From Clostridium pasteurianum DSM 525 = ATCC 6013 (GTDB lineage Bacteria > Bacillota > Clostridia > Clostridiales > Clostridiaceae), in contig NZ_CP009268.1 of the NCBI RefSeq assembly GCF_000807255.1, forward strand, positions 1,084,384-1,148,383: DNA of 64,000 bases, read 5' to 3'. Position 1 is the first letter of the stretch. The number at the start of each line of letters is the position of its first letter. The notes beneath the pieces were generated by a model that saw only the letters and a program-made list of their open reading frames with translations, was not told the DNA's origin and searched no databases. A program made the translations under genes and the position numbers. Below are positions 5,851-35,027 of this stretch, piece after piece.

Positions 5851-6546
5851 TTATTCCTGAAGCTTAAAACCTATACCCCACACTGTTTGAATATATTTTG
5901 TATTATTGTCTGCTTGAGAAAGTTTTGTACGAAGATTGCTTATATGTACATTTATTGTATTATCATCACCAATAAATTTATCGTTACGGGCAGCTTCAAA
6001 TAGATTGGCTCTTGTAAACACTTTTTTTGGATTACTCATAAGTAAATTAAGTATTTTATATTCTGTAAGAGTTAAAATAATAGGTTTATCCCTTACAAAA
6101 ACTTCTTTTGCATCCGTATCTAAAATAATATTTTTATATCTCAGTTTTTTATCCTTTATATTGGAATTTGAAAATTCTTTGTATCTTCTAAGTTGAGCTT
6201 CAACTCTTGCCAGCACTTCATATACATCAAAGGGCTTTCCTATAAAATCATCTGCACCCAGCTTTAATACATTTATCTTATCCTGCTGGGCCACTTTTGC
6301 AGATATGACTATAATAGGCATGATTTTTAGCTTCCTTATTTCTGATATCAAATCTTCACCGCTGACTCCTGGCAGCATTAAATCCAGCAGTACTATGTCA
6401 TAGTCATATTGTTCCAGACACATCTTAGCCTCAGAGCCAGAGTAGGTAGGCCTTACATTATAACCTTTTCTTGTCAATATACTGCATAATAGTCCATTTA
6501 TATCTGTATCATCTTCACTTACTAATATATTGATATTTGATTTCAT
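5851..6546 (-). CDS. OmpR-family response regulator
   Basis: A 231-aa regulator: receiver domain with acidic pair SEDD, phospho-acceptor Asp in VLLDLMLPG and Lys in IGKPFD, followed by a winged-helix DNA-binding domain (about residues 130-230) ending TVWGIGFKLQE. It is the first gene of the operon that includes the ABC transporter and the kinase at 2359, and so probably regulates the transporter. The start is the ATG at 6546 after AAAGAGGTG, not the GTG inside that ribosome binding site. A 22-bp terminator separates it from the zinc-ribbon gene upstream. Confidence 0.9.
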   Translation of the reverse strand: MKSNINILVSEDDTDINGLLCSILTRKGYNVRPTYSGSEAKMCLEQYDYDIVLLDLMLPGVSGEDLISEIRKLKIMPIIVISAKVAQQDKINVLKLGADDFIGKPFDVYEVLARVEAQLRRYKEFSNSNIKDKKLRYKNIILDTDAKEVFVRDKPIILTLTEYKILNLLMSNPKKVFTRANLFEAARNDKFIGDDNTINVHISNLRTKLSQADNNTKYIQTVWGIGFKLQE

Positions 6547-6606
6547 GAAAATCACCTCTTTGTGAATTATAGCATATTTTGAATTTACTATTTATATGGT
6601 GAAAAA

Positions 6607-6664
6607 TAAAATAAAATCAATATACCCTATGAAAGTAAATTTTTCATAGGGTATATTGATTTTA
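6607..6664 (-). terminator. Strong intrinsic terminator downstream of zinc-ribbon gene
   Basis: A perfect stem of about 22 bp (AAAATCAATATACCCTATGA pairing with its complement, 6-base loop). It is followed on the minus strand by a T-rich tract. It should end transcription from the 6705-8111 gene before the response regulator. Confidence 0.88.
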
Positions 6665-6704
6665 AATTTCAGTAAAAACTTCAACTTTGAAACATTAACC
6701 AAAT

Positions 6705-8111
6705 TTATTTACTATCCATAATACTTGTAAGCTGATATCCACCTGTATTTTCATTATATTTGAAGCCGTAAGTATATCTAAAGGTCTTTGTAGAGGTTTT
6801 GCCAGAAGCATTAGTTATATCATAGACTTCCTCTGTAGTTATGGTACCAGAATTGTTATCATCTGAAATTTGAGTAGAAAGTACATTATAGGACATTATA
6901 TATTCTTTTATTCCATTATTATAAGTACTTGGGATATATTTTTGCTGTTCATTATATAATTCACTTCCTGGGTATATATAAGGCTGTACCTCTGAAAAGT
7001 TGTTATAATTAACGGCATTTGAAAAGGAGTTAGTATACCAATGTATCAGGTCTCTCAGCTGATCTTCTGTGCTGCTCAGTTCATATTCAGAAGAACTGAA
7101 ATTTAGGCTTATAGTCTTATCACCACTGGAAACTGTATATTCACTGCTTTTTAATTTTTTACCATCTTTATTTGCTACAGCATATATTTTCATGTCACTG
7201 CTTACAGGTCCAAAATTTGAGGCATCACTGATTTTAACATTACTGTTTCTATTGTTTACAAATATTTCTGCATCAGGATAATCACCATTTATCCGTACAT
7301 AGTTAAGATCTTCAAGAGCATTTATGTCAACCCTGCCGCTAGTTGAATTTATGAGATCCACATTATAGGTATTATTCAAAGAAGTGTACTTACCATTGTA
7401 ACTTGCATACAATTTATATTCTCCAGGGGCAAAGGGACCGAACTCTCTTGAAAAATTATCTGAATCACTTTTACCAATTTTACTGTTATTTAAAGAAAAT
7501 TGTACATCCTTTATACTGGTTTTAATATTAACAAAAGTTGGTTTTATAGATATTTTGTATCTTGGAAAAAAAGGTAGGGCATTTCCAGCGCTAACTATAC
7601 TGAAATTACTTTGAGACAGCATATTTCCATATCTTACATTATTAGTACTTATTTGATTATTTAAATTACCGATGGTGTTGTTCAAATAAGATGGATTATT
7701 CCTAAAGTATGCAAGTATAGTATCACTGGTTTTATCATCAATGATTAATCTGCTATCGCTGCAATATAATATTTTACTTAAATCAGACTTATTATTGGAT
7801 GCAATATCATTTTGAAAACGCAATACCAGTTTATAGGGATCTGCAGCAGATTTACCTATAAAAATGTATACACCTATGATAATTGCCAATATTATAAGTC
7901 CCGCTATAGTTATCTTAAATTTTTTTGAAGGAATAAAGCTTGTCTTATTAAAATTTTCATATTCATCATAATCTTTTTCAATTTCAACTGTAGTTTTATC
8001 TATAGGTACAGTATTATTTTTGTATTCCTTTGATTGAAAATCATAGCTGCAATTGGGACATACCAGTTTGCCTTCCTCTAATTTAGTACCACATTTAGTG
8101 CAAAAATTCAT
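6705..8111 (-). CDS. Zinc-ribbon, single-pass membrane protein (TcaA/YvbJ-like)
   Basis: A 468-aa protein starting with a zinc ribbon (CTKCGTKLEEGKLVCPNC, residues 4-21). A charged linker, one membrane helix (about residues 70-86) and a large extracytoplasmic part follow. The last 110 residues resemble an NTF2-like fold, as in TcaA and YvbJ, which are linked to cell-wall antibiotic response. That layout comparison is by architecture only. The gene has its own strong terminator and follows a second zinc-ribbon membrane protein, which suggests related roles at the envelope. Confidence 0.8.
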   Translation of the reverse strand: MNFCTKCGTKLEEGKLVCPNCSYDFQSKEYKNNTVPIDKTTVEIEKDYDEYENFNKTSFIPSKKFKITIAGLIILAIIIGVYIFIGKSAADPYKLVLRFQNDIASNNKSDLSKILYCSDSRLIIDDKTSDTILAYFRNNPSYLNNTIGNLNNQISTNNVRYGNMLSQSNFSIVSAGNALPFFPRYKISIKPTFVNIKTSIKDVQFSLNNSKIGKSDSDNFSREFGPFAPGEYKLYASYNGKYTSLNNTYNVDLINSTSGRVDINALEDLNYVRINGDYPDAEIFVNNRNSNVKISDASNFGPVSSDMKIYAVANKDGKKLKSSEYTVSSGDKTISLNFSSSEYELSSTEDQLRDLIHWYTNSFSNAVNYNNFSEVQPYIYPGSELYNEQQKYIPSTYNNGIKEYIMSYNVLSTQISDDNNSGTITTEEVYDITNASGKTSTKTFRYTYGFKYNENTGGYQLTSIMDSK

Positions 8112-11752: not shown

Positions 11753-11828
11753 ACATACCTAGTTTTGGCTAGGAGATTCTATCACATATTCTCATTTTGC
11801 TAACATACTCGACATGGGTCGGGAGATT
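11753..11828 (+). other. Two covarying tandem hairpins (possible RNA element)
   Basis: Two copies of ACATA-stem-hexaloop-stem-AGATT lie 50 bases apart: CCTAG/CTAGG at 11758-11773 and CTCGA/TCGGG at 11808-11823. Three stem base pairs change in both strands (T-A to C-G, A-T to G-C, G-C to A-T) while pairing is kept, which points to RNA structure. It lies between the MazF-like gene and the GGDEF remnant. Confidence 0.5.
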
Positions 11829-12572: not shown

Positions 12573-12595
12573 TTAAAATTTCAAATTTTAAAGTT

Positions 12596-13090
12596 CTATT
12601 TTCTGCCGCATTCTGAGGCATTGCCTGTTAAAATGTCAATTCCGTGGGGAAGTGCTGGTAAAACTACCTCTAGATTTTCTACTGCTCCTTTAGGACTTCC
12701 AGGTAAATTTATTATAAGAGTATTTTTTCGTATACCGCTTACTGCTCTTGAAAGCATTGCTTTAGGAGTTATTTTAAGAGATTGAGATCTCATGGCTTCA
12801 GGAATACCAGGTACTTGCCTTTCTATGACAGCTAAAGTAGCTTCTGGAGTAACGTCCCTTTTAGAAAAACCTGTACCGCCATTTGTCAATATGAGATTTA
12901 CTTTTAAAGTGTCACAGAGATATATTAACTCCTTTTTTATTAAATCCAGTTCATCTGGTACTATTTTATAGTAGTCTATAGAATATTTATCCCTTGGCAG
13001 AGTATTATCTATGGAAGGCCCAGTAGTATCTTTACGTTCATTCTTTGAGCCTTTATCGCTTATAGTTAGGATTGCTGTACTTATTGCCAT
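12596..13090 (-). CDS. mogA: Molybdopterin adenylyltransferase (MogA/MoaB-like)
   Basis: A 164-aa MoCF-fold protein that adenylates molybdopterin before metal insertion by MoeA. Visible motifs are AILTISDKGS at the N-terminus, ILTNGGTGFSKRDVTPEA (substrate loop, about residues 65-82) and INLPGSPKGAVENL. It faces away from the fdhA-moe-mob operon and shares its upstream region. GAGGTG lies 14 bases before the ATG, a wide spacing. Its role fits the nearby MoeA, and no other adenylyltransferase is in the window. Confidence 0.88.
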   Translation of the reverse strand: MAISTAILTISDKGSKNERKDTTGPSIDNTLPRDKYSIDYYKIVPDELDLIKKELIYLCDTLKVNLILTNGGTGFSKRDVTPEATLAVIERQVPGIPEAMRSQSLKITPKAMLSRAVSGIRKNTLIINLPGSPKGAVENLEVVLPALPHGIDILTGNASECGRK

Positions 13091-13360
13091 AATTCTGAGT
13101 TTTCACCTCACTTTCTATATACAAATCTTTTTCACAATTATTTCTTAAATGATACTTCACTAACAGCTTCTTGTCAAAGAATTATTTTTAGGTGAAACTT
13201 AATTGTGGGAAAAGATGAAGGGAAAGCAAAGTATAAAGTTCGAAGAACAAATATGAAATGGAGAAAGTTAAGTTTTTAGTATGACGTAGTATATGATTAT
13301 ATTAAGTTGAAATATTTTATTTTATATGTCATAAAAGTGAAAAATAAGGATTATTATAGT

Positions 13361-13389
13361 TTGACTATAAAATTTAAAGATAGTAAAAT
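13361..13389 (+). promoter_or_regulatory. Predicted sigma-A promoter of fdhA
   Basis: TTGACT, a 17-base spacer and TAAAAT. Transcription would start near 13396, giving a leader of about 267 nt before the fdhA ATG at 13663. No other plus-strand gene precedes fdhA. Confidence 0.6.
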
Positions 13390-13485
13390 ATATACATAGA
13401 TTTATCGTATTTTTATTGGTATTTTATTGTAATATTGATGATAGGTGTGATTGAATAATTAGTGAGATTTAGTGAATGTATGGAT

Positions 13486-13640
13486 TTTATTGGCAAGGGT
13501 AATAGAGCGTTACAACAATAAAGTTAATAGACTCAATGGTTTCATTGAAAGGATAGATATTTATCGTTAATATTTTAGCTTTTAAATAGACCAGTGCAGA
13601 TGTATAAGATTAAAATGCATTGTACTGGTCTTTTGTTTTG
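13486..13640 (+). promoter_or_regulatory. Structured fdhA leader ending in terminator-like hairpin
   Basis: Elements in order: TTTATTG (13486-13492) pairs with CAATAAA (13516-13522) and encloses GTAA/TTAC. Next is TCAATG-gttt-CATTGA (13533-13548). Last is AGACCAGT (13588-13595) pairing with ACTGGTCT (13624-13631), extended by four pairs and followed by TTTTGTTTT. The final hairpin is an intrinsic terminator 31 bases upstream of the fdhA start with no gene before it, so attenuation is likely. The aptamer or antiterminator is not identified; it does not match the Moco riboswitch by eye. Confidence 0.6.
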
Positions 13641-13662
13641 TCTTATACAAAGGAGTGTTAAT

Positions 13663-15795
13663 ATGGAAAAAAAAGTTCTTACAGTATGTCCTTATTGTGG
13701 AAGCGGATGCAATTTATATTTGGTGGTGGAAGGTGGAAAAGTTGTCAGGGCAGAACCTGCAAAGGGAAGAAACAATGAAGGAAAGCTTTGTCTAAAGGGA
13801 TATTATGGATGGGATTTTTTGAATGATCCTAAGCTTTTAACTTCCAGGTTAAAAAAACCTATGATAAGAAAAAATGGAGTTTTAGAGGAAGTTTCTTGGG
13901 ATGAGGCTATAAAATTTACAGCAGAAAATCTTATGAAAATAAAAGCTCAATATGGTCCAGATGCAATTATGGGAACTGGTTCTGCAAGAGGTCCAGGAAA
14001 TGAACCAAACTATATTATGCAGAAGTTTATGAGAGCTGCTATAGGAACTAATAATATAGATCATTGTGCAAGGGTATGTCATGGACCTTCAGTAGCAGGG
14101 CTTGATTATTCATTAGGAGGAGCGGCTATGTCCAATTCAATTCCTGAAATTGAAGATACAGATGTAGTATTTGTATTTGGATATAATCCATCTGAAACTC
14201 ATCCTATTGTTGCAAGGAGAATAGTTAAGGCAAGAGAAAAAGGTGCAAAAATAATTGTAGCGGATCCAAGAAAAATAGAAACAGTAAAAATATCAGATCT
14301 ATGGCTTCAATTAAAAGGCGGTACTAATATGGCACTGGTTAATGCTCTTGGTAATGTACTTATAAATGAAGAATTATATGATGAAAAATTTGTAGAAAAT
14401 TGTACAGAGGGTTTTGAAGAATATAAAGAAGCAGTAAAGAAATATACTCCTGAATATGCAGAGAAGATAACCGGGGTAAGTGCAGAATATATAAGAAAAG
14501 CTATGAGAATTTATGCTAAAGCTAAAAAGGCTACAATTCTGTATGGAATGGGAGTCTGTCAATTCTCTCAAGCAGTAGATGTAGTAAAAGGACTAGCTTC
14601 TCTGGCACTTTTAACGGGAAATCTTGGACGTCCTAATGTGGGAATTGGTCCTGTGCGTGGACAAAATAATGTACAGGGTACTTGCGATATGGGAGTACTT
14701 CCTAACAGATTTCCAGGTTATCAGTCTGTTACAGATGAAAAGGCCCGTGAAAAATTTGAAAAGGCCTGGGGAGTAAAGTTATCAGATAGAGTTGGATATT
14801 TTCTTACAGAGGTACCAAAACATGTACTTAAAGAGGATAAAATAAAGGCTTATTATATCTTTGGTGAAGATCCTGCTCAAAGTGATCCAAATGCAGCAGA
14901 AGTTAGAGAAGCACTGGATAAAATAGACTTTGTAATAGTTCAGGATATATTCATGAACAAAACAGCTCTTCATGCAGATGTAGTTCTTCCAGCTACTTCC
15001 TGGGGAGAACATGATGGGGTGTATAGTGCAGCAGACAGATCTTTTCAGAGAATAAGAAAAGCTGTAGAGCCTATGGGAGAGGCTAAGGATGACTGGGAGA
15101 TAATATGTGAAATATCTACTGCTATGGGCTATCCTATGCATTACAATAATACAGAGGAAATTTGGAATGAAATGAGGAGCCTTTGTCCTAAATTTGCTGG
15201 AGCAAGTTATGAAAAGATGGAAAAACAAGGGGCAGTGCCATGGCCTTGTACTTCGGAGGAAGATCCAGGGACAGATTATCTATACGATGACGGTAAATTC
15301 ATGACAGAAAACGGCAGGGGGAAACTGTTTGCCTGTGAGTGGAGGCATCCTTTTGAATTAACAGATGAAAAATATCCTTTGGTTTTATCTACTGTAAGAG
15401 AAATAGGACATTATTCAGTAAGAACTATGACAGGAAATTGTCGTACACTTCAGAAGTTGGCAGATGAACCTGGATATATAGAAATAAGTGTGGAAGATGC
15501 AAAGGAACTCAATATAAAGGATCAGGAACTGGTAACTGTAAGTTCTAGAAGAGGCAAAATAATTACCAGAGCAGCAGTTGCTGAAAGAGTAAAAAAAGGT
15601 GCTACTTACATGACTTATCAATGGTGGGTTGGTGCTTGTAATGAATTGACTATTGACAGTCTTGATCCTATTTCAAAAACACCTGAGTTTAAATATTGTG
15701 CAGTAAAAGTGGAGAGAATCAAAGATCAACAGAAGGCAGAGCAAGAGATAGAAGAAAGGTATAGTAGTTTAAAGAAGCAGATGAAAGCAGAATAG
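13663..15795 (+). CDS. fdhA: Formate dehydrogenase catalytic subunit, cysteine type
   Basis: A 710-aa molybdo/tungsto-bis-MGD enzyme interconverting formate and CO2, close in size to E. coli FdhF (715 aa). The N-terminus binds one [4Fe-4S] cluster (CPYCGSGC, then Cys in GKLCLKG). The metal ligand lies in HCARVCHGPSVAGL at residue 139, where the codon is TGT, so this is a Cys and not a selenocysteine enzyme. The C-terminal molydopterin-binding domain (from about residue 590) is complete. The start is the ATG at 13663 after AAAGGAG. It leads an operon with moeA, mobB, two ferredoxin subunits and mobA, which probably supply cofactor and electron transfer. A terminator-like hairpin upstream suggests attenuation. 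Confidence 0.93.
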   Translation: MEKKVLTVCPYCGSGCNLYLVVEGGKVVRAEPAKGRNNEGKLCLKGYYGWDFLNDPKLLTSRLKKPMIRKNGVLEEVSWDEAIKFTAENLMKIKAQYGPDAIMGTGSARGPGNEPNYIMQKFMRAAIGTNNIDHCARVCHGPSVAGLDYSLGGAAMSNSIPEIEDTDVVFVFGYNPSETHPIVARRIVKAREKGAKIIVADPRKIETVKISDLWLQLKGGTNMALVNALGNVLINEELYDEKFVENCTEGFEEYKEAVKKYTPEYAEKITGVSAEYIRKAMRIYAKAKKATILYGMGVCQFSQAVDVVKGLASLALLTGNLGRPNVGIGPVRGQNNVQGTCDMGVLPNRFPGYQSVTDEKAREKFEKAWGVKLSDRVGYFLTEVPKHVLKEDKIKAYYIFGEDPAQSDPNAAEVREALDKIDFVIVQDIFMNKTALHADVVLPATSWGEHDGVYSAADRSFQRIRKAVEPMGEAKDDWEIICEISTAMGYPMHYNNTEEIWNEMRSLCPKFAGASYEKMEKQGAVPWPCTSEEDPGTDYLYDDGKFMTENGRGKLFACEWRHPFELTDEKYPLVLSTVREIGHYSVRTMTGNCRTLQKLADEPGYIEISVEDAKELNIKDQELVTVSSRRGKIITRAAVAERVKKGATYMTYQWWVGACNELTIDSLDPISKTPEFKYCAVKVERIKDQQKAEQEIEERYSSLKKQMKAE

Positions 15796-28125: not shown

Positions 28126-28157
28126 ATTGAAGCAAGTTCTTAATTCAGGTGAAAAAA
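28126..28157. repeat. Solo left end of family A
   Basis: ATTGAAGCAAGTTCTTAATTCAGGTGAAAA only, with neither hairpin complete. It matches the outer end of full family A copies and the fragment at 39931. Confidence 0.6.
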
Positions 28158-28224: not shown

Positions 28225-28328
28225 TTTTATTAACAATAAAATCAATATTTAAGGTTGACTAGTAACACTAGAGACTTGTTTCCTAAGTTATTTTATAGGG
28301 GAATAGGTAGCTGGTGTTTTTTATTTTC

Positions 28329-28625
28329 ACATGACTAATTTGGCGTAAGTTTTCCACGCACTCTGTACAGCGATTCACACAAAATCCAAAAGAAGATTTT
28401 GGTTCTCTGCTTGCACTCTGTGAAAGCGATTCACACAAAATCGAAAAGAAGATTTTGGTTCTCTGCTTGCACTCTGTGAAAGCGATTCACACAAAATCGA
28501 AAAGAAGATTTTGGTTCTCTGCTTTTCTTCAAGTGAGAGTTCGACGCCAAGTAAGCCATGCATTTGCAGTTCTAAAATTCAGATTGGGTAAAAGAATCCC
28601 CACCTGAATTAAGAGCTTGCTTCAA
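28329..28625. repeat. Family A repeat with three tandem tip modules (A4)
   Basis: Reverse-orientation full family A element: TTGGCGTAAG...GACGCCAAGT hairpin, GCATTTGCAGTTC, a partly degraded TTCAGATTGGG hairpin, and AGAGCTTGCTTCAA. The tip of the larger hairpin is expanded by three 56-bp units. It ends at the ribosome binding site of the NifD-like gene, so this RNA structure would form in that mRNA. Confidence 0.85.
28370..28524. repeat. Tandem 56-bp module, three copies
   Basis: Units begin at 28370, 28426 and 28482 with GCGATTCACACAAAATC. Each holds a small hairpin (CAAAATC...GATTTTG) and ends CTCTGCTTGCACTCTGTGAAA-like. One unit occurs at 31766 and about two diverged units, inverted, at 49105-49195. 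Confidence 0.9.
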
Positions 28626-28640
28626 AGGGAGGGATTTTTA

Positions 28641-30140
28641 ATGAAGAAGATAAACTTAGATAATTCCTTGGTGCAGACTCGTGAGGAGAGGCTTGGAACC
28701 ATCATTTCATGGAAAACCGGCAAGGCATCAGAAATTTTAAGAGATTCTGAATATACCTGCGGCGGCTGCAAGGATAATGGAGGGAAAAGACTTTGCGAAC
28801 CCAGAGGACCTTTTACTCAAGGGTCCAAGTGCAGCGAAGAAATGGTATCATGTCAGCATAGTAATGTAAGAGATGCGGTTTTTATTCAGCATTCTCCGGT
28901 AGGATGTGGTGCAGGTCAGGTATTATCCAATTCACTATATCGTAATGGTCTTGCCATAAGAGGATTGCCTGTAGAAAATGTCAGGATAATCAATACAAAT
29001 ATGGATGAAAGTGATGTGGTTTTTGGAGGATTAAAAAAGTTAGAACAGTCTATAAGGGATGCCTTTAACAGGCACAATCCTAAAGTTATTTTTGTGGGTA
29101 CCTCTTGTGCTGCAGGAGTTATTGGAGAGGACATAGAAAGTGTAACAAATAAATTGCAGCAGGAATTTAAAATACCTGTAATTCCTACCTACTGTGAAGG
29201 ATTCAGATCAAAACACTGGACTACAGGTTTTGATGCAGCCTACCATGGAATTATAAGGCAGGTAGCCCGTAAAAATCCTAAGAGGCAGGAAGATTTGGTT
29301 AATGTAATTGACCTTTGGGGTGAAGATATATTTACACCTATGCTTGGAGAACTGGGACTTAGGGTTAATTATGTGGTGGATTTAGCCAGCGTAGAGGATT
29401 TAGAGCAGATGTCAGAAGCTGCTGCCAGTGTTTCCTTTTGTTATACACTATCTTCCTATCTATCTGCTGCTCTAGAAAAACAGTTTGGAGTTGTAGATGT
29501 TAAAGCTCCTCAGCCCTATGGGATTCTTGCTACAGATGCTTGGATAAGAGAACTGGGAAAAGTTACCCATAGAGAGGAAAAGGCAGAAGCTTATATAGAA
29601 AAGGAACATAAGAGGATAGAAAAAAGACTGCAGGAACTTAGAAAACTACTTAAGGGTAAAGTCGGCTATGTAGCTACGGGATCTTCTTATGCTCACGGTA
29701 TTATTGCAGTGCTACGGGATCTTGGTGTAGATATAGATGGATCTCTTACCTTTCACCATGAACCAATATTTGATGGTGAAGATGCGGATAAAAAGGATTC
29801 TCTAAAATTTTTAGTGGAGAACTATGGGGATGTTTCGCAGTTTAGTGTAAGTAATGGTCAGCAGTATCAATTTTATGGACTTCTTAAAAATATAAATCCT
29901 GATTTTATCATCATAAGACATAATGGGCTTGCACCTTTAGCTTCAAGAATGGGAATTCCAGCAGCACCTCTTGGAGATGGTCATCATGCAGTAGGCTATC
30001 AGGGAATTATAAATTTGGGAGAGACTATTCTTGAGATACTGGCCCGTAAGAAATTCCATCAGGATCTATCTGAAAATGTAGAATTGCCTTATACAGATTG
30101 GTGGCTCAGCCAAAAGGATCCCTATGTGCTTGCAAAGTAA
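28641..30140 (+). CDS. Nitrogenase component 1-like protein, NifD-type (pair 1)
   Basis: A 499-aa homologue of the nitrogenase alpha chain. P-cluster cysteines are at residues 64, 89 (PVGCG) and 156 (TSCAAGVIGED), and the cofactor-ligand Cys275 equivalent is C267 (SFCYTLSSYL). The motif CEGFR (185-189) matches NifD, but by-eye alignment puts Trp193 and Phe197 where NifD has Gln191 and His195. The His442 region is altered (GDGHH at 446-449). An N-terminal insertion adds C40, C43 and C52. These losses argue against N2 fixation; a nitrogenase-like reductase is more likely. GGGAGGG precedes the ATG at 28641. It pairs with the next gene; no NifH is in the window. Confidence 0.87.
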   Translation: MKKINLDNSLVQTREERLGTIISWKTGKASEILRDSEYTCGGCKDNGGKRLCEPRGPFTQGSKCSEEMVSCQHSNVRDAVFIQHSPVGCGAGQVLSNSLYRNGLAIRGLPVENVRIINTNMDESDVVFGGLKKLEQSIRDAFNRHNPKVIFVGTSCAAGVIGEDIESVTNKLQQEFKIPVIPTYCEGFRSKHWTTGFDAAYHGIIRQVARKNPKRQEDLVNVIDLWGEDIFTPMLGELGLRVNYVVDLASVEDLEQMSEAAASVSFCYTLSSYLSAALEKQFGVVDVKAPQPYGILATDAWIRELGKVTHREEKAEAYIEKEHKRIEKRLQELRKLLKGKVGYVATGSSYAHGIIAVLRDLGVDIDGSLTFHHEPIFDGEDADKKDSLKFLVENYGDVSQFSVSNGQQYQFYGLLKNINPDFIIIRHNGLAPLASRMGIPAAPLGDGHHAVGYQGIINLGETILEILARKKFHQDLSENVELPYTDWWLSQKDPYVLAK

Positions 30141-30252
30141 AATATATGAAATTTAGTTTTATTAAATTCGGTAGCATGATCATTAGTTTATATAAGCTTA
30201 GTGTAAATAAAAACTTAAGTCAGAGTTATTTAACATAAAAGGAGTTAGCATA

Positions 30253-31641
30253 ATGTCTATTTCAGAAGCAAATTATGGGAAAAGAGATTTGGGAGAATGT
30301 GAAAAATTAAAGAAGACAAATTCTATAGAACAGATTAGATATGGTTGTGCCTTAGGAGCTATACACAGTGTTTTTGCCATTCCAAGAGTAATTCCCATTA
30401 CCCATTGCGGTCCGGGATGTGCTCAAAAACAGGTTACTGCCATATCCTTTAACAATGGGTTTCAAGGTGGCGGTTATGGGGGCGGTGCCGTTATTCCAAG
30501 CAGCAACATAAATGAAAAAGAAGTTGTATTTGGGGGAGAAAACAGGTTAAAAGAATTAATTGAAGGCACTTTTAAAGTCTTAAAGGCAGATTTATTTGTG
30601 GTGATGACAGGATGTATTCCGGATACAGTGGGGGATGATGTAGGAGCTGTGGTAGGAGAATTCCAAAAGAAAGGACTTCCTATCGTATATGCGGAAACGG
30701 GAGGTTTTAAAGGTAATAATTTCACTGGTCATGAACTTGTTACCAAGGCCATTATTGATCAGTATGTAGGTGATTATGATGGACCTAAAGAAATGGGTCT
30801 TGTAAATGTATGGTCACTGCTTCCTTATCATAATACCTTTTGGAAGGGTGATCTTACGGAAATAAAGAGAATTTTAGAGGGTGTAGGATTAAAGGTCAAT
30901 ATTTTGTTCGGAAATAAAAGTGATGGGGTTTCAGAGTGGAAAAACATAAAAAAAGCACAATTCAATTTGGTGCTGTCTCCTTGGCTAGGGCTTCAGACAG
31001 CAGAGCACTTAAAAGAAAAGTATGGTCAGCCTTATCTGCATATTCCTGTAATTCCCATAGGAGCTAAGGAAACCAGTAGTTTTCTTAGAAAGGTAGTGGA
31101 TTTCGCAGGGATCGATAAAGAGAAGGCGGAGAGATTTATTGAACAGGAGAGAAAAGAATACTATAACTATTTGGAAGGATTTTCTGATTTTTATGCAGAG
31201 TATTTTTGGGGACTTCCAGCAAAATTTGCAGTTATAGGAGATAGTAACTATAACCTGGCAATAACAAAATTTTTAGTTAATCAGTTGGGAGTAATACCTG
31301 CAAGACAGATCATTACAGATAATCCACCTGAAAAATACAGAAGACTTATCGTGGAAGAATATAAAAATATAGCAGAGGATGTGTCTGTAGATGTGGAGTT
31401 TGAAGAGGATAGCTATATTATTCATGAAAAAATAAGGAAAACGGATTTTGGAAATAAGCCGCCTATTATTTTTGGTACTACCTGGGAGAGAGATCTGGTA
31501 AAAGAGCTGAGAGGGCATATAGTGGAAATAGGCTTTCCAGCTTCCTATGAGGTGGTTATATCAAAGTCCTATGTTGGGTACAGAGGAGCTCTTACTCTTC
31601 TTGAAAAAATTTATACCACAACAGTAAGTGCCAGTGCGTAG
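30253..31641 (+). CDS. Nitrogenase component 1-like protein, NifK-type (pair 1)
   Basis: A 462-aa beta-chain homologue with P-cluster cysteines at residues 32 (RYGCALGA), 56 (GPGCAQKQ) and 121 (MTGCIPDTVGDD); an extra Cys is at 52. It also has VNVWSLLPYHNTFWKGDL and KYGQPYLHIPVIPIGAKET, patterns seen in NifK-type chains. AAAGGAG precedes the ATG. It lies 112 bases after the NifD-like gene and probably forms an alpha2beta2 complex with it. A terminator at 31929 ends this unit. Confidence 0.87.
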   Translation: MSISEANYGKRDLGECEKLKKTNSIEQIRYGCALGAIHSVFAIPRVIPITHCGPGCAQKQVTAISFNNGFQGGGYGGGAVIPSSNINEKEVVFGGENRLKELIEGTFKVLKADLFVVMTGCIPDTVGDDVGAVVGEFQKKGLPIVYAETGGFKGNNFTGHELVTKAIIDQYVGDYDGPKEMGLVNVWSLLPYHNTFWKGDLTEIKRILEGVGLKVNILFGNKSDGVSEWKNIKKAQFNLVLSPWLGLQTAEHLKEKYGQPYLHIPVIPIGAKETSSFLRKVVDFAGIDKEKAERFIEQERKEYYNYLEGFSDFYAEYFWGLPAKFAVIGDSNYNLAITKFLVNQLGVIPARQIITDNPPEKYRRLIVEEYKNIAEDVSVDVEFEEDSYIIHEKIRKTDFGNKPPIIFGTTWERDLVKELRGHIVEIGFPASYEVVISKSYVGYRGALTLLEKIYTTTVSASA

Positions 31642-31737
31642 TGCAGAGATTGATCCTAGGTAAAATAGCATATTTTAGAATTGTCTATTATGAAGAATAG
31701 ATACTGATTATGAAAAAATGTATTTATCCTATGACTA

Positions 31738-31920
31738 TACACTCTAATACTCTCGTAGCACACAGCAAAAGCGATTCACACAAAATCAAAAAAAGATTTT
31801 GGTTCTCTGCTTTTCTTCAAGTGGGAGTAAAGAGTGGCTACGTCCCTGGATAACGACTTCTAAATATTAGGAATCATAAAGAAATTCCATATGATGCTAA
31901 GAATTCTGTTTATAGATAAG
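31738..31920. repeat. Family B repeat carrying one 56-bp module (B3)
   Basis: Starts TACACTCTAATACTC, contains one module (GCGATTCACACAAAATC...GGTTCTCTGC), then AAGTGGGAGTAAAGAGTGGCTACG, CCTGGATAA and AGAATTCTGTTTATA. The module seen in family A has therefore also entered family B. Confidence 0.65.
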
Positions 31921-31928
31921 TCGACTAG

Positions 31929-31985
31929 ATAAACTAGAGATTTAAATTCTTAAATTTAAGGATTTGAATTTCTAGTTTATTTTTA
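31929..31985 (+). terminator. Terminator between the two NifDK-like pairs
   Basis: AAACTAGA...TTAAATTC pairs with GGATTTGAATTTCTAGTTT, followed by ATTTTTATAT. It implies separate transcription of pair 2. Confidence 0.75.
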
Positions 31986-32143
31986 TATATAAAACTACTT
32001 AGTTCACATAGTATATCTAAATTTACTCAGATCTTAATAAAAGGATTAAATTTACTTAATATAATATATTTGGAAAAGATTGCTTTGGAATGCAATCAGC
32101 AGCTTTTATTGGGAGATAATTTGAAATTGTTGGGAGGATTAAT

Positions 32144-33649
32144 ATGAAAATTAATTTAGAAGTACCTGAGGTAGCGATAAGAGAAAAAAGACTTGGATCT
32201 ATTACGGGCTTTTGCGGAACAGCAGAGGGTTTAGTTAAAACAGCTAGATGCGGAAAACTTAAAGAGGAAAATCGAAGTTTCAGTCAATGGGCTGGCTGCA
32301 GTGTAGGTAAAGCTTTATGTCAGCTTTCCATGATACAGGACGCAGTAGTAATACAGCATGGTCCTATAGGGTGTTCAGGAGAATTTTCTATGTTTGGTTT
32401 TGTAAACAAGGTTGGACAGAAACAAAGAAATCTCACTGTAAAAAATATAAATGCAGTAAGTTCAAATTTGGAAGAGAAAGATACTATTTATGGTGGAGGA
32501 GCTAAACTTCGAAAGACTATAAAAGAGGTCTTTCAGGAGTTTAATCCAAAGGCAATATTTATAACTACTTCCTGCGCCTCAGGCATTATAGGAGATGATG
32601 TTGAAGCCATAGCGGACAAGGCAGAAAAAGAGATAGGTATACCAATAGTGTATATTTCCTGTGAGGGCTTTAAGTCCAGAGTATGGACTACAGGCTTTGA
32701 TGCTGCTTTCCACGGCATTTTAAGAAAAATTGTAAAACCTCCAGTGGAAAAGAAAAAGAATGTCATCAATATAATAAGCTTTTGGGGAAGTGATGAGTTT
32801 TCATATTTACTCCGAAAAATAGGTTTAGAGCCAAACTATATAGCTCCATTTTCAACTGTAGAGCAATTATCGAAACTGTCAGAAGCAGCAGCTACAGCAC
32901 AAATATGTTCCACTCTTGGAACTTATCTTGCAGCAGGATTACAACAGGAATATGGGATTCCTGAAGTGAAAGCTTCCCAGCCTTATGGGATAACAGGTAC
33001 TGATGCTTGGTTTAGAGAAATTGGAAAAATAATAGGGAAAGAACAGGAGGTAGAGGAGCTAATAAAATCAGAAAAGGAGAGAATAGCACCTAAGCTTGAG
33101 GAGTTAAGAAATAGATTAAAAGGGAAAACGGGATATGTCACTGCAGGAGCTGCCTATGGTCACATAATTTCTACATTACTTAATGAATTAAATGTAAAAG
33201 TAATTGGAGCCTGCGTTTATCATCATGATCCTGTTTATGATAATGGAGATATCGATGCGGATACTTTGAATTTTGTGGTTGAAAATTATGGAGACATACC
33301 TAATTATGATGTATCCAATAAACAGTCCTTTGAATTTGTAAATGCTATGAATAAAATAAGACCTGATATATGTGTAACAAGACATCCAGGAATGGCCATA
33401 TGGGGCATAAGACTTGGGATACCAACACTACTTTGGGCCAATGAAAATTTAAGCTTTGGTTATCAGGGATTAATTAATTTTGGAGAAAGGGTAGTAGATT
33501 TACTGGAAAATGATGAATTTGTAAAAAATATTGCGGAGCATTCAGAACTTCCATATACAGATTGGTGGATGAATCAAAATCCATATTCTTTTCTTGGAAC
33601 TAAAGGTAAAAAGACAGAGGAATTACAAAGAGAAAAGGTTGCTGAATAA
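32144..33649 (+). CDS. Nitrogenase component 1-like protein, NifD-type (pair 2)
   Basis: A 501-aa paralogue of the pair 1 alpha chain. P-cluster cysteines are at residues 52 (AGCSVGKAL), 77 (PIGCSGE) and 144 (TSCASGIIGDD); C255 (QICSTLGTYL) aligns with the NifD cofactor Cys275. Trp181 and Phe185 again replace Gln191 and His195. The His442 region reads WANENLSFGYQG, with no His, unlike pair 1. The CxxC insertion of pair 1 is absent. GGGAGG precedes the ATG. The difference at the His region suggests the two pairs carry different cofactors or act on different substrates. Confidence 0.87.
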   Translation: MKINLEVPEVAIREKRLGSITGFCGTAEGLVKTARCGKLKEENRSFSQWAGCSVGKALCQLSMIQDAVVIQHGPIGCSGEFSMFGFVNKVGQKQRNLTVKNINAVSSNLEEKDTIYGGGAKLRKTIKEVFQEFNPKAIFITTSCASGIIGDDVEAIADKAEKEIGIPIVYISCEGFKSRVWTTGFDAAFHGILRKIVKPPVEKKKNVINIISFWGSDEFSYLLRKIGLEPNYIAPFSTVEQLSKLSEAAATAQICSTLGTYLAAGLQQEYGIPEVKASQPYGITGTDAWFREIGKIIGKEQEVEELIKSEKERIAPKLEELRNRLKGKTGYVTAGAAYGHIISTLLNELNVKVIGACVYHHDPVYDNGDIDADTLNFVVENYGDIPNYDVSNKQSFEFVNAMNKIRPDICVTRHPGMAIWGIRLGIPTLLWANENLSFGYQGLINFGERVVDLLENDEFVKNIAEHSELPYTDWWMNQNPYSFLGTKGKKTEELQREKVAE

Positions 33650-33701
33650 ATTATTTGAAAAACATCATGTGAAAATATAAATTTTCAAGGGGGAAAAATA
33701 A

Positions 33702-35027
33702 GTGTCAGGTATAATTGAACAACCAAGATATGTATGTGCTATAGGAGCACAGCAGACTGTTTTAGCTATAGATAAAGCAATACCAATTCTAAATTCAGGA
33801 CCAGGCTGCAGTGAAAAAGTCTTTAGTGCTGTAAGCTTTAACTCTGGATATCAGGGAACAGGCTATGCAGGGGGAAGTACCATACCTTGTACAAACAGTT
33901 CAGAAAGAGAAGTAGTATTTGGAGGAGAAGATAGGCTAAGGGAAGTAATAGATGGTACCCTTAAGATTTTAAAAGGAGATTTATTCGTAGTATTAACAGG
34001 CTGTACTTCTGATATTATAGGAGATGATGTGGGACAAGTAGTTTCTGAATATCAGAAAAATGGAGTACCTATAGTATATGCTGAAACGGGAGGATTTAAA
34101 GGGAATAATTACTTAGGTCATGAGCTTGTAACTCAGGCAATTATAAATCAATTTGTAGGTGATGTACAGCCAAAAGTTGAAAAAGGTTTAGTCAATGTAT
34201 GGTCGGTAGTACCCTATCAGGATCCTTTCTGGGCTGGAAATCTATCAGAAATTAAACGATTGTTAGAGGGAATAGGACTTAGAGTCAATATATTATTTGG
34301 ACCAGAAGCTGGGGGAGTAGAAGAGTGGAAAACTATTCCTAACGCTGAATTTAATATTGTATTATCTCCCTGGGTAGGACTCAAAACGGCAAAACTGTTA
34401 AAAGATAAATATGGAACTCCATATTTATATCATCCCATATTTCCTATAGGTGCTAAACAAACTACAGAATTTTTGAGGAAAGTAGTGGAATTTGGAGATC
34501 TGGATAGAAATAAGGCAGAAGAGTTCATAAGAGATAAAGAAAGAATTTATTATTACTATTTACAGAGATCTGCAGATTTTTTTGTAGAATTCCGGTATGA
34601 TTTAATTCATAAATTTTTCACTATTACTGATTCCTTTTATGCTCTAGGTATCAATAAATTTTTAATAAAGGAGCTTGGACTTGTACCAGGTCAGCAGTAT
34701 ATAACTGAAAATACGCCTAAGGAATATGAAGACTTTATAAAAAGGGAACTTGAAAATTCCTCAAAAACTATTTCTGCAGAAGTAATATTTGAAACCAACG
34801 GCAGGAAAATTCATAAGGGCATAAGAAATTATGATCATAATAATCATAAGCCGCTAATTATAGGAAGCTTTTGGGATAAAGATATAGTTTCTGAATTAGG
34901 AGGCTATGGTTTAGATTTGTCAATACCTATACTTAACAGTATTGTACTAAATAAGACTTATGCAGGTTACAATGGTGCCTTAGCCTTAGTTGAAGATATA
35001 TATAATAGTATATTAAATCATTATTAG
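33702..35027 (+). CDS. Nitrogenase component 1-like protein, NifK-type (pair 2)
   Basis: A 441-aa beta-chain homologue with P-cluster cysteines at residues 12 (RYVCAIGA), 36 (GPGCSEKV) and 101 (LTGCTSDIIGDD). It matches the pair 1 beta chain nearly end to end but starts only about 10 residues before the first cysteine. GTG start with AAGGGGG upstream. It follows its alpha chain by 52 bases. A long inverted repeat follows the gene. Confidence 0.87.
   Translation: MSGIIEQPRYVCAIGAQQTVLAIDKAIPILNSGPGCSEKVFSAVSFNSGYQGTGYAGGSTIPCTNSSEREVVFGGEDRLREVIDGTLKILKGDLFVVLTGCTSDIIGDDVGQVVSEYQKNGVPIVYAETGGFKGNNYLGHELVTQAIINQFVGDVQPKVEKGLVNVWSVVPYQDPFWAGNLSEIKRLLEGIGLRVNILFGPEAGGVEEWKTIPNAEFNIVLSPWVGLKTAKLLKDKYGTPYLYHPIFPIGAKQTTEFLRKVVEFGDLDRNKAEEFIRDKERIYYYYLQRSADFFVEFRYDLIHKFFTITDSFYALGINKFLIKELGLVPGQQYITENTPKEYEDFIKRELENSSKTISAEVIFETNGRKIHKGIRNYDHNNHKPLIIGSFWDKDIVSELGGYGLDLSIPILNSIVLNKTYAGYNGALALVEDIYNSILNHY

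Follow-up and report, generated by a model that had tools for sequence, protein, structure and literature searches.

Two tandem nitrogenase-like gene pairs of Clostridium pasteurianum: a predicted methylthio-alkane reductase, a sister type and a candidate leader RNA

Introduction

What could two tandem pairs of NifDK-like genes, with altered active-site residues and no NifH beside them, be doing in Clostridium pasteurianum? The question is raised by a 64-kb stretch of its genome (the window; G000:C1:1084384-1148383, in a genome consisting of a single contig of 4,352,101 bases), where four intact open reading frames (ORFs) at 28641-35027 form two such pairs, just as a preliminary description of the sequence had stated. 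Our computational analysis covered homology, residue conservation, clades, the operon contexts of relatives, leader covariation and co-occurrence, and it indicates that both pairs are probably reductases that win sulfur by splitting C-S bonds, with leader attenuation and with the Fe protein and NifB supplied in trans. By homology, pair 1 is a methylthio-alkane reductase (Mar) in the strict sense, with an activity predicted from that placement, and pair 2 is by the same measure a separate subfamily, sister to Mar, with the same cluster ligands and an aliphatic residue at the place of His194. Both pairs lie behind a candidate new RNA attenuator that appears to be common to sulfur-salvage genes. 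The enzyme type of pair 1 is known, being that of the recently solved Mar, while the sister type is uncharacterised and the candidate leader RNA would be new.

The four genes are arranged in the window as follows:

28641 to 30140, + strand: D1, intact ORF with ATG start; predicted MarD, alpha chain of methylthio-alkane reductase
30253 to 31641, + strand: K1, intact ORF; predicted MarK, beta chain of methylthio-alkane reductase
32144 to 33649, + strand: D2, intact ORF; Mar-like alpha chain of the sister clade, with Val180 at the place of MarD His194
33702 to 35027, + strand: K2, intact ORF; Mar-like beta chain of the same type as D2 (clade support 0.995)

An in-frame TTG at 28617, from which the program-made ORF list starts D1, lies upstream of the ATG.

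Results

Pair 1 falls inside the Mar clade

The best solved relative of D1 is MarD of Rhodospirillum rubrum (9fmg_A, E 1.1e-226; best non-Mar chain 8e-29), and that of K1 is MarK (9d9u_C, E 5.9e-228; next chain 3.2e-24), with identities of 65.7% and 74.5%, respectively. D1 keeps the Mar P-cluster cysteines C66, C91 and C158, the pocket residues C73, Q74, H194, W195, F199 and H375, and the equivalents of C270, R428 and H429. In trees calculated with FastTree on MAFFT alignments, D1 lies inside a Mar clade of 22 alpha-chain rows, R. rubrum MarD among them (support 1.0), and K1 inside a Mar beta-chain clade of 20 rows (support 1.0); the alpha-chain row counts here and below leave out two rows, a fragment in L117 and L112, which duplicates another record. 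None of the 13 inspected positions varies among the 22 alpha rows, D1 included. The preliminary description had proposed nitrogenase-like reductases, comparable to Mar, CfbCD or other uncharacterised groups, and that they are reductases of this kind and not nitrogenases holds. "Uncharacterised" does not apply to pair 1, as this pair is placed inside a characterised nitrogenase-like clade, that of methylthio-alkane reductase, an outcome that the description had listed as refuting its reading.

The cluster ligands are kept in both pairs. As previously described, all 12 P-cluster cysteines of the four chains are present (12/12 by alignment: C64/C89/C156 in D1, C52/C77/C144 in D2, and the three MarK-equivalent cysteines in K1 and in K2), both alpha chains carry the Cys275-equivalent ligand (C267 in D1, C255 in D2), and Trp and Phe stand at the places of NifD Gln191 and His195 (W193/F197 in D1, W181/F185 in D2). 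On the other hand, the missing His in the His442 region of pair 2 does not amount to the ligand loss that could be read from it. Mar holds its cofactor histidine on another loop than NifD His442, in the pair Arg428-His429 (PMC12552129), and these residues are found in both alpha chains, as R426-H427 in D1 and as R413-H414 in D2.

Pair 1 departs from the R. rubrum arrangement in that marB and marH are not encoded together with marDK, none of them being found in the window. The presence of marB and marH beside marDK is a matter of arrangement and not of homology; a NifH gene occurs in the same run of genes in 11 of the 21 Mar-clade rows other than MarD, the remaining rows being without it. By analogy with R. 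rubrum Mar, the substrates of pair 1 should be dimethyl sulfide (DMS), ethyl methyl sulfide and 2-(methylthio)ethanol.

Pair 2 falls in a sister clade without His194

The best solved relative of D2 is also MarD (E 7e-142), at 44.0% identity. D2 keeps 12 of the 13 inspected positions (the equivalents of C66, C73, Q74, C91, C158, W195, F199, C270, H375, H376, R428 and H429), and the change concerns the second-sphere residue His194 of MarD, replaced by Val180. In the trees, D2 lies outside the Mar clade in an alpha clade of its own (support 0.95), within which the inner node joining D2 to riboswitch-linked rows has a support of 0.647, and K2 groups with 13 other rows, one of them a duplicate record, at a support of 0.995. 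At position 194, the 18 counted rows of the pair-2 clade have Ile in 15 cases and Val, Met and Leu in one case each, while His is found in 22/22 Mar rows and in 0/57 Mar-like rows outside the Mar clade. Furthermore, 29 alignment columns are mostly fixed to differing residues between the two clades.

Sulfur genes and SAM riboswitches in relatives

The genomic surroundings were inspected in 19 stretches from genomes G003 and G001 and in 40 stretches that surround Mar-like genes in further genomes of the family. As most loci were fetched for holding Mar-like genes, the operon frequencies given below are not those of random samples; the counts taken genome-wide are the surveys of Mar-like alpha chains, the baseline of S-adenosylmethionine (SAM) aptamers, the leader pattern search and the genome scan with the leader model. 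Gene names without a family call (e.g., major facilitator superfamily transporter, response regulator, short-chain dehydrogenase) were given by eye.

The Rfam scan, which covered 33 Mar-like loci (443,348 bases) apart from the G003 and G001 stretches, revealed 22 SAM-riboswitch aptamers, one of them cut off, in 16 of the loci, as opposed to the 1.5 expected in as many bases from the 191 found in 14 genomes (58 Mb). A SAM riboswitch was found in the same run in 9/16 scanned rows of pair-2 type (L035, L100, L102, L107, L109, L110, L111, L114 and L115), and MetQ in the run of 6/18 such rows (L035, L102, L107, L111, L114 and L118). In the K2 clade, MetQ or a SAM riboswitch is present in the runs of rows L100, L102, L107, L110, L111, L114, L115, L035/L112 and L118. 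In L035, MetI scores above its NCBIfam cut-off, MetN and MetQ stay under theirs although they are the best matches, and the pair is followed by DmsA (923.5 vs 777.7 bits), DmsB (231.7 vs 214.1) and a TorD-like protein below cut-off; in L110, a protein clustering with the DmsA of L035 precedes the pair. Ssu-type importer genes are in the run of 7/21 Mar-clade rows other than MarD. Taken over the relatives, MetY, CysK, NifX-like proteins, ATP-binding cassette (ABC) importers of Ssu and Met type and DmsA/DmsB are recurrent partners. Genes of pair-2 type occur together with a Mar pair in the window, L110, L111, L115, L117 (with the D gene interrupted by a stop) and L118; in L051, K2 alone accompanies the Mar pair.

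A covarying hairpin overlaps the terminators of both leaders

The region upstream of pair 1 is conserved in G003 and holds the pattern GGTTGACTAG-N5-CTAGAGAC, which runs into an intrinsic terminator, and the leader of pair 2 follows the same pattern, with TCGAC. The resulting element is a 24-nt covarying hairpin that overlaps the terminator:

28252 to 28275, + strand: candidate leader hairpin element of pair 1, GGUUGACUAG-UAACA-CUAGAGAC; model R1 E 1.3e-6, copy in the R1 training set
28265 to 28322, + strand: intrinsic terminator in the leader of pair 1, its 5' arm being formed by the element's 3' half; -22.6 kcal/mol; ends counted by hand
31918 to 31941, + strand: candidate leader hairpin element of pair 2, GUCGACUAG-AUAAA-CUAGAGAU; R1 E 1.1e-5, copy in the R1 training set
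31929 to 31985, + strand: intrinsic terminator in the leader of pair 2, overlapping the element; 26-nt arms 31929-31954 and 31955-31980, then a T-run whose end was counted by hand

The terminator and the repeat previously seen between the pairs could be confirmed, the former with its 26-nt arms at 31929-31980 and the latter as a copy of a 56-nt repeat at 31770.

In 116 genomes of the family, the pattern gave 38 matches vs 4 for the reversed pattern, and together with a terminator it was present in eight genomes, all of which have Mar-like genes; three matches (G006, G088 and G097) did not fit the longer pattern of the terminator test. The 5' arm of the terminator starts in the 3' half or the loop of the element in all 29 instances with a terminator. 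When the stem letters were left free, 39 of the 127 distinct candidates had a terminator, 38 of them with 4/4 stem pairs, while a complete stem was found in only 23 of the 88 candidates without terminator; the 127 candidates come mostly from Mar-like loci and are therefore a biased sample. An alignment (A2) of 37 references and four hand-added sequences (window 31918, L113 12414, L101 11225 and L178 6343, the last of which had failed the automatic terminator test) leaves out two candidates, one in L097 and one with three pairs at window position 11809. Its 41 sequences (34 distinct) have 238/238 cells in standard pairs and 4/7 stem pairs changed on both sides, and its covariation score was reached by 0/500 shuffles, which ignore relatedness; a weaker measure, that of further pair types, was reached by 21/500.

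The model R1 was trained on A2, so its hits in the training genomes are partly circular. Outside the training set it gave 31 sites (E at most 0.02), of which 24 have a terminator and 7 do not. None of the 29 testable sites is inside an ORF, the other two being in L174, where ORFs were uncalled, and 25 of the 27 sites with a called downstream gene are at most 400 bases before it. For comparison, the terminator test was passed by 205/1500 random upstream positions, and 1620/2000 random positions fell inside ORFs. Genome-wide, at E 0.001 and with strict filters, R1 matches 16/116 family genomes, comprising 15/17 genomes with Mar-like genes (not G033 and G086) vs 1/99 others (G115, with a single match at 6.3e-4). 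Mar-like alpha chains themselves (profile A1, E 1e-80) are present in 17/116 genomes of the family and 25/391 of the class, with copy numbers per genome that are lower bounds, up to 13 candidates being scored per genome in the family and up to 4 in the class.

Downstream genes were read for part of the genome-wide R1 sites, and they include those for Mar-like D, NifH, NifB-type, metQ-like, metN-like, MetY and Ssu-type proteins. The element also precedes the gene of a protein resembling MoeA, with scores under the MoeA cut-offs, that of a DmsA-like oxidoreductase (451.3 vs 777.7 bits) with DmsB (215.0 vs 214.1), and an ABC operon whose last gene encodes S-methyl-5-thioribose kinase (439 vs 275 bits). 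In the genome of C. pasteurianum itself, R1 (E below 0.01) marks seven nitrogenase-like units, three of them in training: pair 1, pair 2, the units at 2.555 Mb (where no terminator was found), 3.636/3.630 Mb, 3.661 Mb and 4.152 Mb, and the pair at 2.075 Mb. SAM riboswitch and element occur in series, in either order. At the gathering threshold, no Rfam family matches the element in the window and the scanned loci, and E-value scans at the element gave only sub-gathering matches, mostly of microRNA models on the terminator hairpin. Among titles and abstract openings on nitrogenase with SAM riboswitch or antitermination, we found no paper on this leader.

Ribonucleic antiterminator (RAT) elements of the BglG/SacY/LicT antiterminators are short hairpins with an internal loop that overlap the 5' arm of an intrinsic terminator. 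The leader element resembles them in this build and overlap, but its sequence differs and the putative regulon concerns sulfur instead of sugar.

Nitrogenase-like genes elsewhere in the genome

There is no match to the NifH model PF00142 or to the nifB model TIGR01290 inside the 64-kb window, in accordance with the preliminary description, and the nearest strong NifH is at genome position 1,208,188. For the organism as a whole such a lack does not exist. The genome search for a NifH-like ATPase and NifB that had been suggested found both outside the window: NifH has six strong matches, NifB is present once, and a further, shorter protein is of NifB type. This last protein and one of the NifH sit in Mar-like loci. 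An intact nif set, including a NifN-B fusion, is located elsewhere, and its NifD is identical to chain 4wes_A over 533 aligned residues, structures 4wes and 1mio being presumably from C. pasteurianum. The nif order with the NifN-B fusion, the six NifH and two further nitrogenase sets fit this species as presented in the excerpt of PMC5027557. The loci at 3.61-3.64 Mb contain NifH, Mar-like pairs, MetY and CysK (both above cut-off) and SsuA-type and NifB-type proteins (both below cut-off), and by gene order they include the nifH4 cluster of PMC5027557, named there, in the part considered, a smaller nitrogen-fixing cluster. The CdhC model PF03598 has no match in the genome.

Pfam PF00148 has 41 matches in the genome. 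Besides the nitrogenases, 13 alpha-type chains belong to the Mar-like clade, and another, at 2.075 Mb, is just outside it. These paralogues vary at positions 73, 74, 194 and 376, and orthologues in G003 and G001 keep the pocket type of each paralogue, with few exceptions.

Several individual paralogues have peculiarities of their own. The Mar-like D at L024 6424-7917 (1.626 Mb) has Ala at position 429, the place of the cofactor histidine, and in that at L028 6838-8232 (2.365 Mb) Cys270 is replaced by Ser and His375 by Lys. L030 holds two closely grouped Mar-like D genes (6315-7781 and 12586-14052), one without a K partner, and a nitrogenase-like alpha chain at L026 5854-7304 (genome 2.0959-2.0973 Mb) is split into overlapping ORFs of 110 and 373 amino acids. 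In the two nitrogenase sets present besides the Mo type (L022 and L033), an ORF of 114 or 116 amino acids lies between D and K, like a G subunit.

Discussion

The data are consistent with the following course of events. Under sulfur shortage, the leader would let transcription through and the D and K chains would be made, with the hairpin and the intrinsic terminator of each leader being mutually exclusive and thus deciding on the transcription of the pair. The chains could then form D2K2 heterotetramers with a P-cluster and an L-cluster ([Fe8S9C]), the latter coming in trans from a NifB-type maker (NifB/MarB) encoded at other loci, and the electrons, also in trans, from a shared NifH-type Fe protein (NifH/MarH). 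Such an enzyme would reductively split C-S bonds and release sulfur at the level of methanethiol from organic sulfur compounds, and methionine could be made from the methanethiol by O-acetylhomoserine sulfhydrylase (MetY). A MetNIQ-type importer would bring in the substrate of pair 2, which some species would reduce beforehand by an enzyme of the dimethyl sulfoxide reductase type. Judging from the neighbours of its relatives (importer, sulfoxide reductase, SAM riboswitch), pair 2 most likely cleaves another methylthio compound than Mar does. The preliminary description had left the choice between sulfur and carbon substrates open, and sulfur is the most likely of them; its proposal of two substrates for two pairs appears probable.

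Several other explanations have to be considered. Pair 2 might be a second Mar isoform acting on the same substrates with another affinity or expression, which would agree with the 12 of 13 inspected positions shared with Mar and with the linkage of its type to a Mar pair in the loci listed above (K2 alone in L051). We regard this as unlikely, though as an alternative to be taken seriously, because the two types form separate clades in both chains, differ at the 29 columns mentioned, and His194 is never present in the pair-2 type, and the accompanying transporter differs between the two kinds within one genome, being of Met type or Ssu type (L111; L112 vs L113). Pair 2 as a NifEN-like maturase scaffold, on which the cluster of pair 1 would be completed or carried, seems improbable. 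The tandem DKDK order does recall nifDKEN, and a scaffold role was proposed for four-gene arrays in the excerpt of PMC3464626, but there are operons of pair-2 type whose fetched stretch contains no Mar pair (L102, L107, L114, L035, L100 and L103), both cluster ligands are kept by pair 2, and R. rubrum MarDK was active in a Rhodobacter capsulatus host with only MarB and MarH added, as far as the considered part of PMC12552129 shows, where nif maturation genes of the host may contribute. Reduction of a sulfonate such as isethionate by pair 2 or by both pairs, as proposed for Isr of R. capsulatus, has very little probability: Ssu-type importers occur in several Mar-like operons (SsuA match below cut-off), but IsrD has one of three P-cluster cysteines and no Cys275 equivalent, according to the excerpt of PMC11423573, where pair 2 has all of them, and MetQ is in the run of six pair-2-type rows. 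The same cysteine pattern, with P-cluster cysteines and Cys275 equivalent kept by both pairs, is the reason for rejecting either as an isethionate reductase.

As for the leader, the hairpin could be a DNA operator or a mere expression platform of the SAM riboswitch, given that an inverted repeat covaries in DNA too and that many copies of the element come after a SAM riboswitch. This is rather doubtful in view of L035, L102 and L115, where the riboswitch seems by eye to have a terminator of its own, after which the element comes with a second one, and of L069, where element and terminator come first; both copies in the window stand alone, and the start of the terminator arm within the element is constant. 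Finally, a degenerate or true nitrogenase is next to impossible: NCBIfam models for nifD, nifK and nifE match weakly, with nifD scores of 130 and 143.2 vs a cut-off of 653.55 bits, the Gln191/His195 places are changed, and an intact nif set exists elsewhere. Mo-, V- and Fe-nitrogenase as well as NifEN are ruled out by scores below all family cut-offs and by Trp/Phe at those places. CfbCD, named earlier as a comparison, is not close either; the NCBIfam models applied to the chains, none of them Mar-named, exclude CfbD, dark-operative protochlorophyllide oxidoreductase and chlorophyllide oxidoreductase, with scores far under the cut-offs (DPOR_BchB at most 105.7 vs 490.35 bits, CfbD at most 53.6 vs 268.4, BchZ at most 59.6 vs 529).

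Some observations weigh against the assignment of both pairs to sulfur-winning C-S reductases under a sulfur-linked leader. By eye, without a Pfam search, no sulfur gene was recognised among the neighbouring translations between 24 and 41 kb; the case for a sulfur role here is therefore made from relatives and from the shared leader. The window has no SAM riboswitch at threshold, the other loci of the same genome scanned with Rfam have a single one, before metK, and L035 is the sole one to carry such a riboswitch among the nine scanned loci that hold pair-2 relatives (L035-L043). The element at L174 6292-6314 precedes a macrolide-family glycosyltransferase (TIGR01426, above cut-off), which fits a sulfur regulon poorly, and the element also stands, judged by eye, before a short-chain dehydrogenase and before a response regulator, without obvious fit. 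Many paralogues occur with sulfonate-type (Ssu) importers, for which reason sulfonates are still conceivable substrates. Moreover, the G003 locus, where D1 is 97.0% and K1 94.2% identical, keeps K2 (83.4%) without D2, and in G113 one D of pair-2 type is interrupted by a stop, indicating that pair 2 is dispensable.

Comparison with known systems shows both shared and distinct features. R. rubrum Mar (MarHDK; PDB 9FMG, 9D9U; PMC12552129) shares with pair 1 the P-cluster and L-cluster ligands and C73, Q74, H194, W195, F199, H375, R428 and H429, and with pair 2 all of these except H194; in the window, in contrast, marB and marH are not beside the pairs, and two tandem pairs with attenuator-like leaders are present. 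The Isr system of R. capsulatus (IsrBHDK) is comparable as a nitrogenase-like enzyme of sulfur assimilation, and Ssu-type importers lie near other paralogues here, but IsrD is without two of the three P-cluster cysteines and the Cys275 equivalent (PMC11423573, in the excerpt), which both our pairs keep. The clostridial Mar-like genes named group IV-A, which lie close to type I mlp clusters, are also accompanied by methionine transporters, and a role in methionine salvage has been proposed for them (PMC10418091); in the part of that paper considered, the roles are proposed without assays and no riboswitch is named. A similar expansion of paralogues is presented by the nine nitrogenase-like pairs of Syntrophobotulus glycolicus, where, in the excerpt of PMC3464626, the Cys275-bearing types have O-acetylhomoserine sulfhydrylase and cysteine synthase as neighbours, as here; C. 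pasteurianum differs in having 13 alpha chains of the Mar-like clade, whose pocket types are for the most part the same from species to species.

We lean, if only slightly, towards a broader picture, in which C. pasteurianum and its relatives would possess a sulfur-starvation regulon of diversified L-cluster C-S reductases, built on one scaffold with many pockets, each for a different organosulfur compound, and controlled by an undescribed terminator-overlapping RNA element, nearly confined to Mar-like genomes and often in series with SAM riboswitches; pair 2 would belong to a partly MetNIQ-linked class, whose substrate might be DMS itself or an amino-acid thioether derived from a sulfoxide. 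Mar is called the sole nitrogenase-like enzyme described with such large clusters in the excerpt of PMC12552129, and C. pasteurianum is the organism in which cell-free N2 fixation was first observed, as stated in that of PMC5027557. The 13 alpha chains with varied pockets in a culturable model could therefore serve as a natural set for studying how one scaffold tunes a nitrogenase-precursor cluster to different bonds. They also suggest why the species has some of its extra nifH genes, since the nifH4 match (by order) heads a Mar-like locus. Release of methane and ethylene from methyl sulfides by clostridia would follow, and the leader element, if confirmed, would be both a novel attenuator linked to sulfur and a means of locating such enzymes.

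Besides the genes and leaders, the locus contains repeats. The 56-nt repeat is present in three tandem copies before pair 1 (28369-28536) and in one copy between the pairs (31770-31825), and it is a dispersed repeat of the genome, where a 17-mer of it occurs 29 times with at most 1 mismatch. Upstream of D1, a 25-nt inverted repeat (28127-28151 and 28601-28625, 96% complementary, 449 nt apart) encloses the leader element and the repeat array, and it is possibly a small mobile element.

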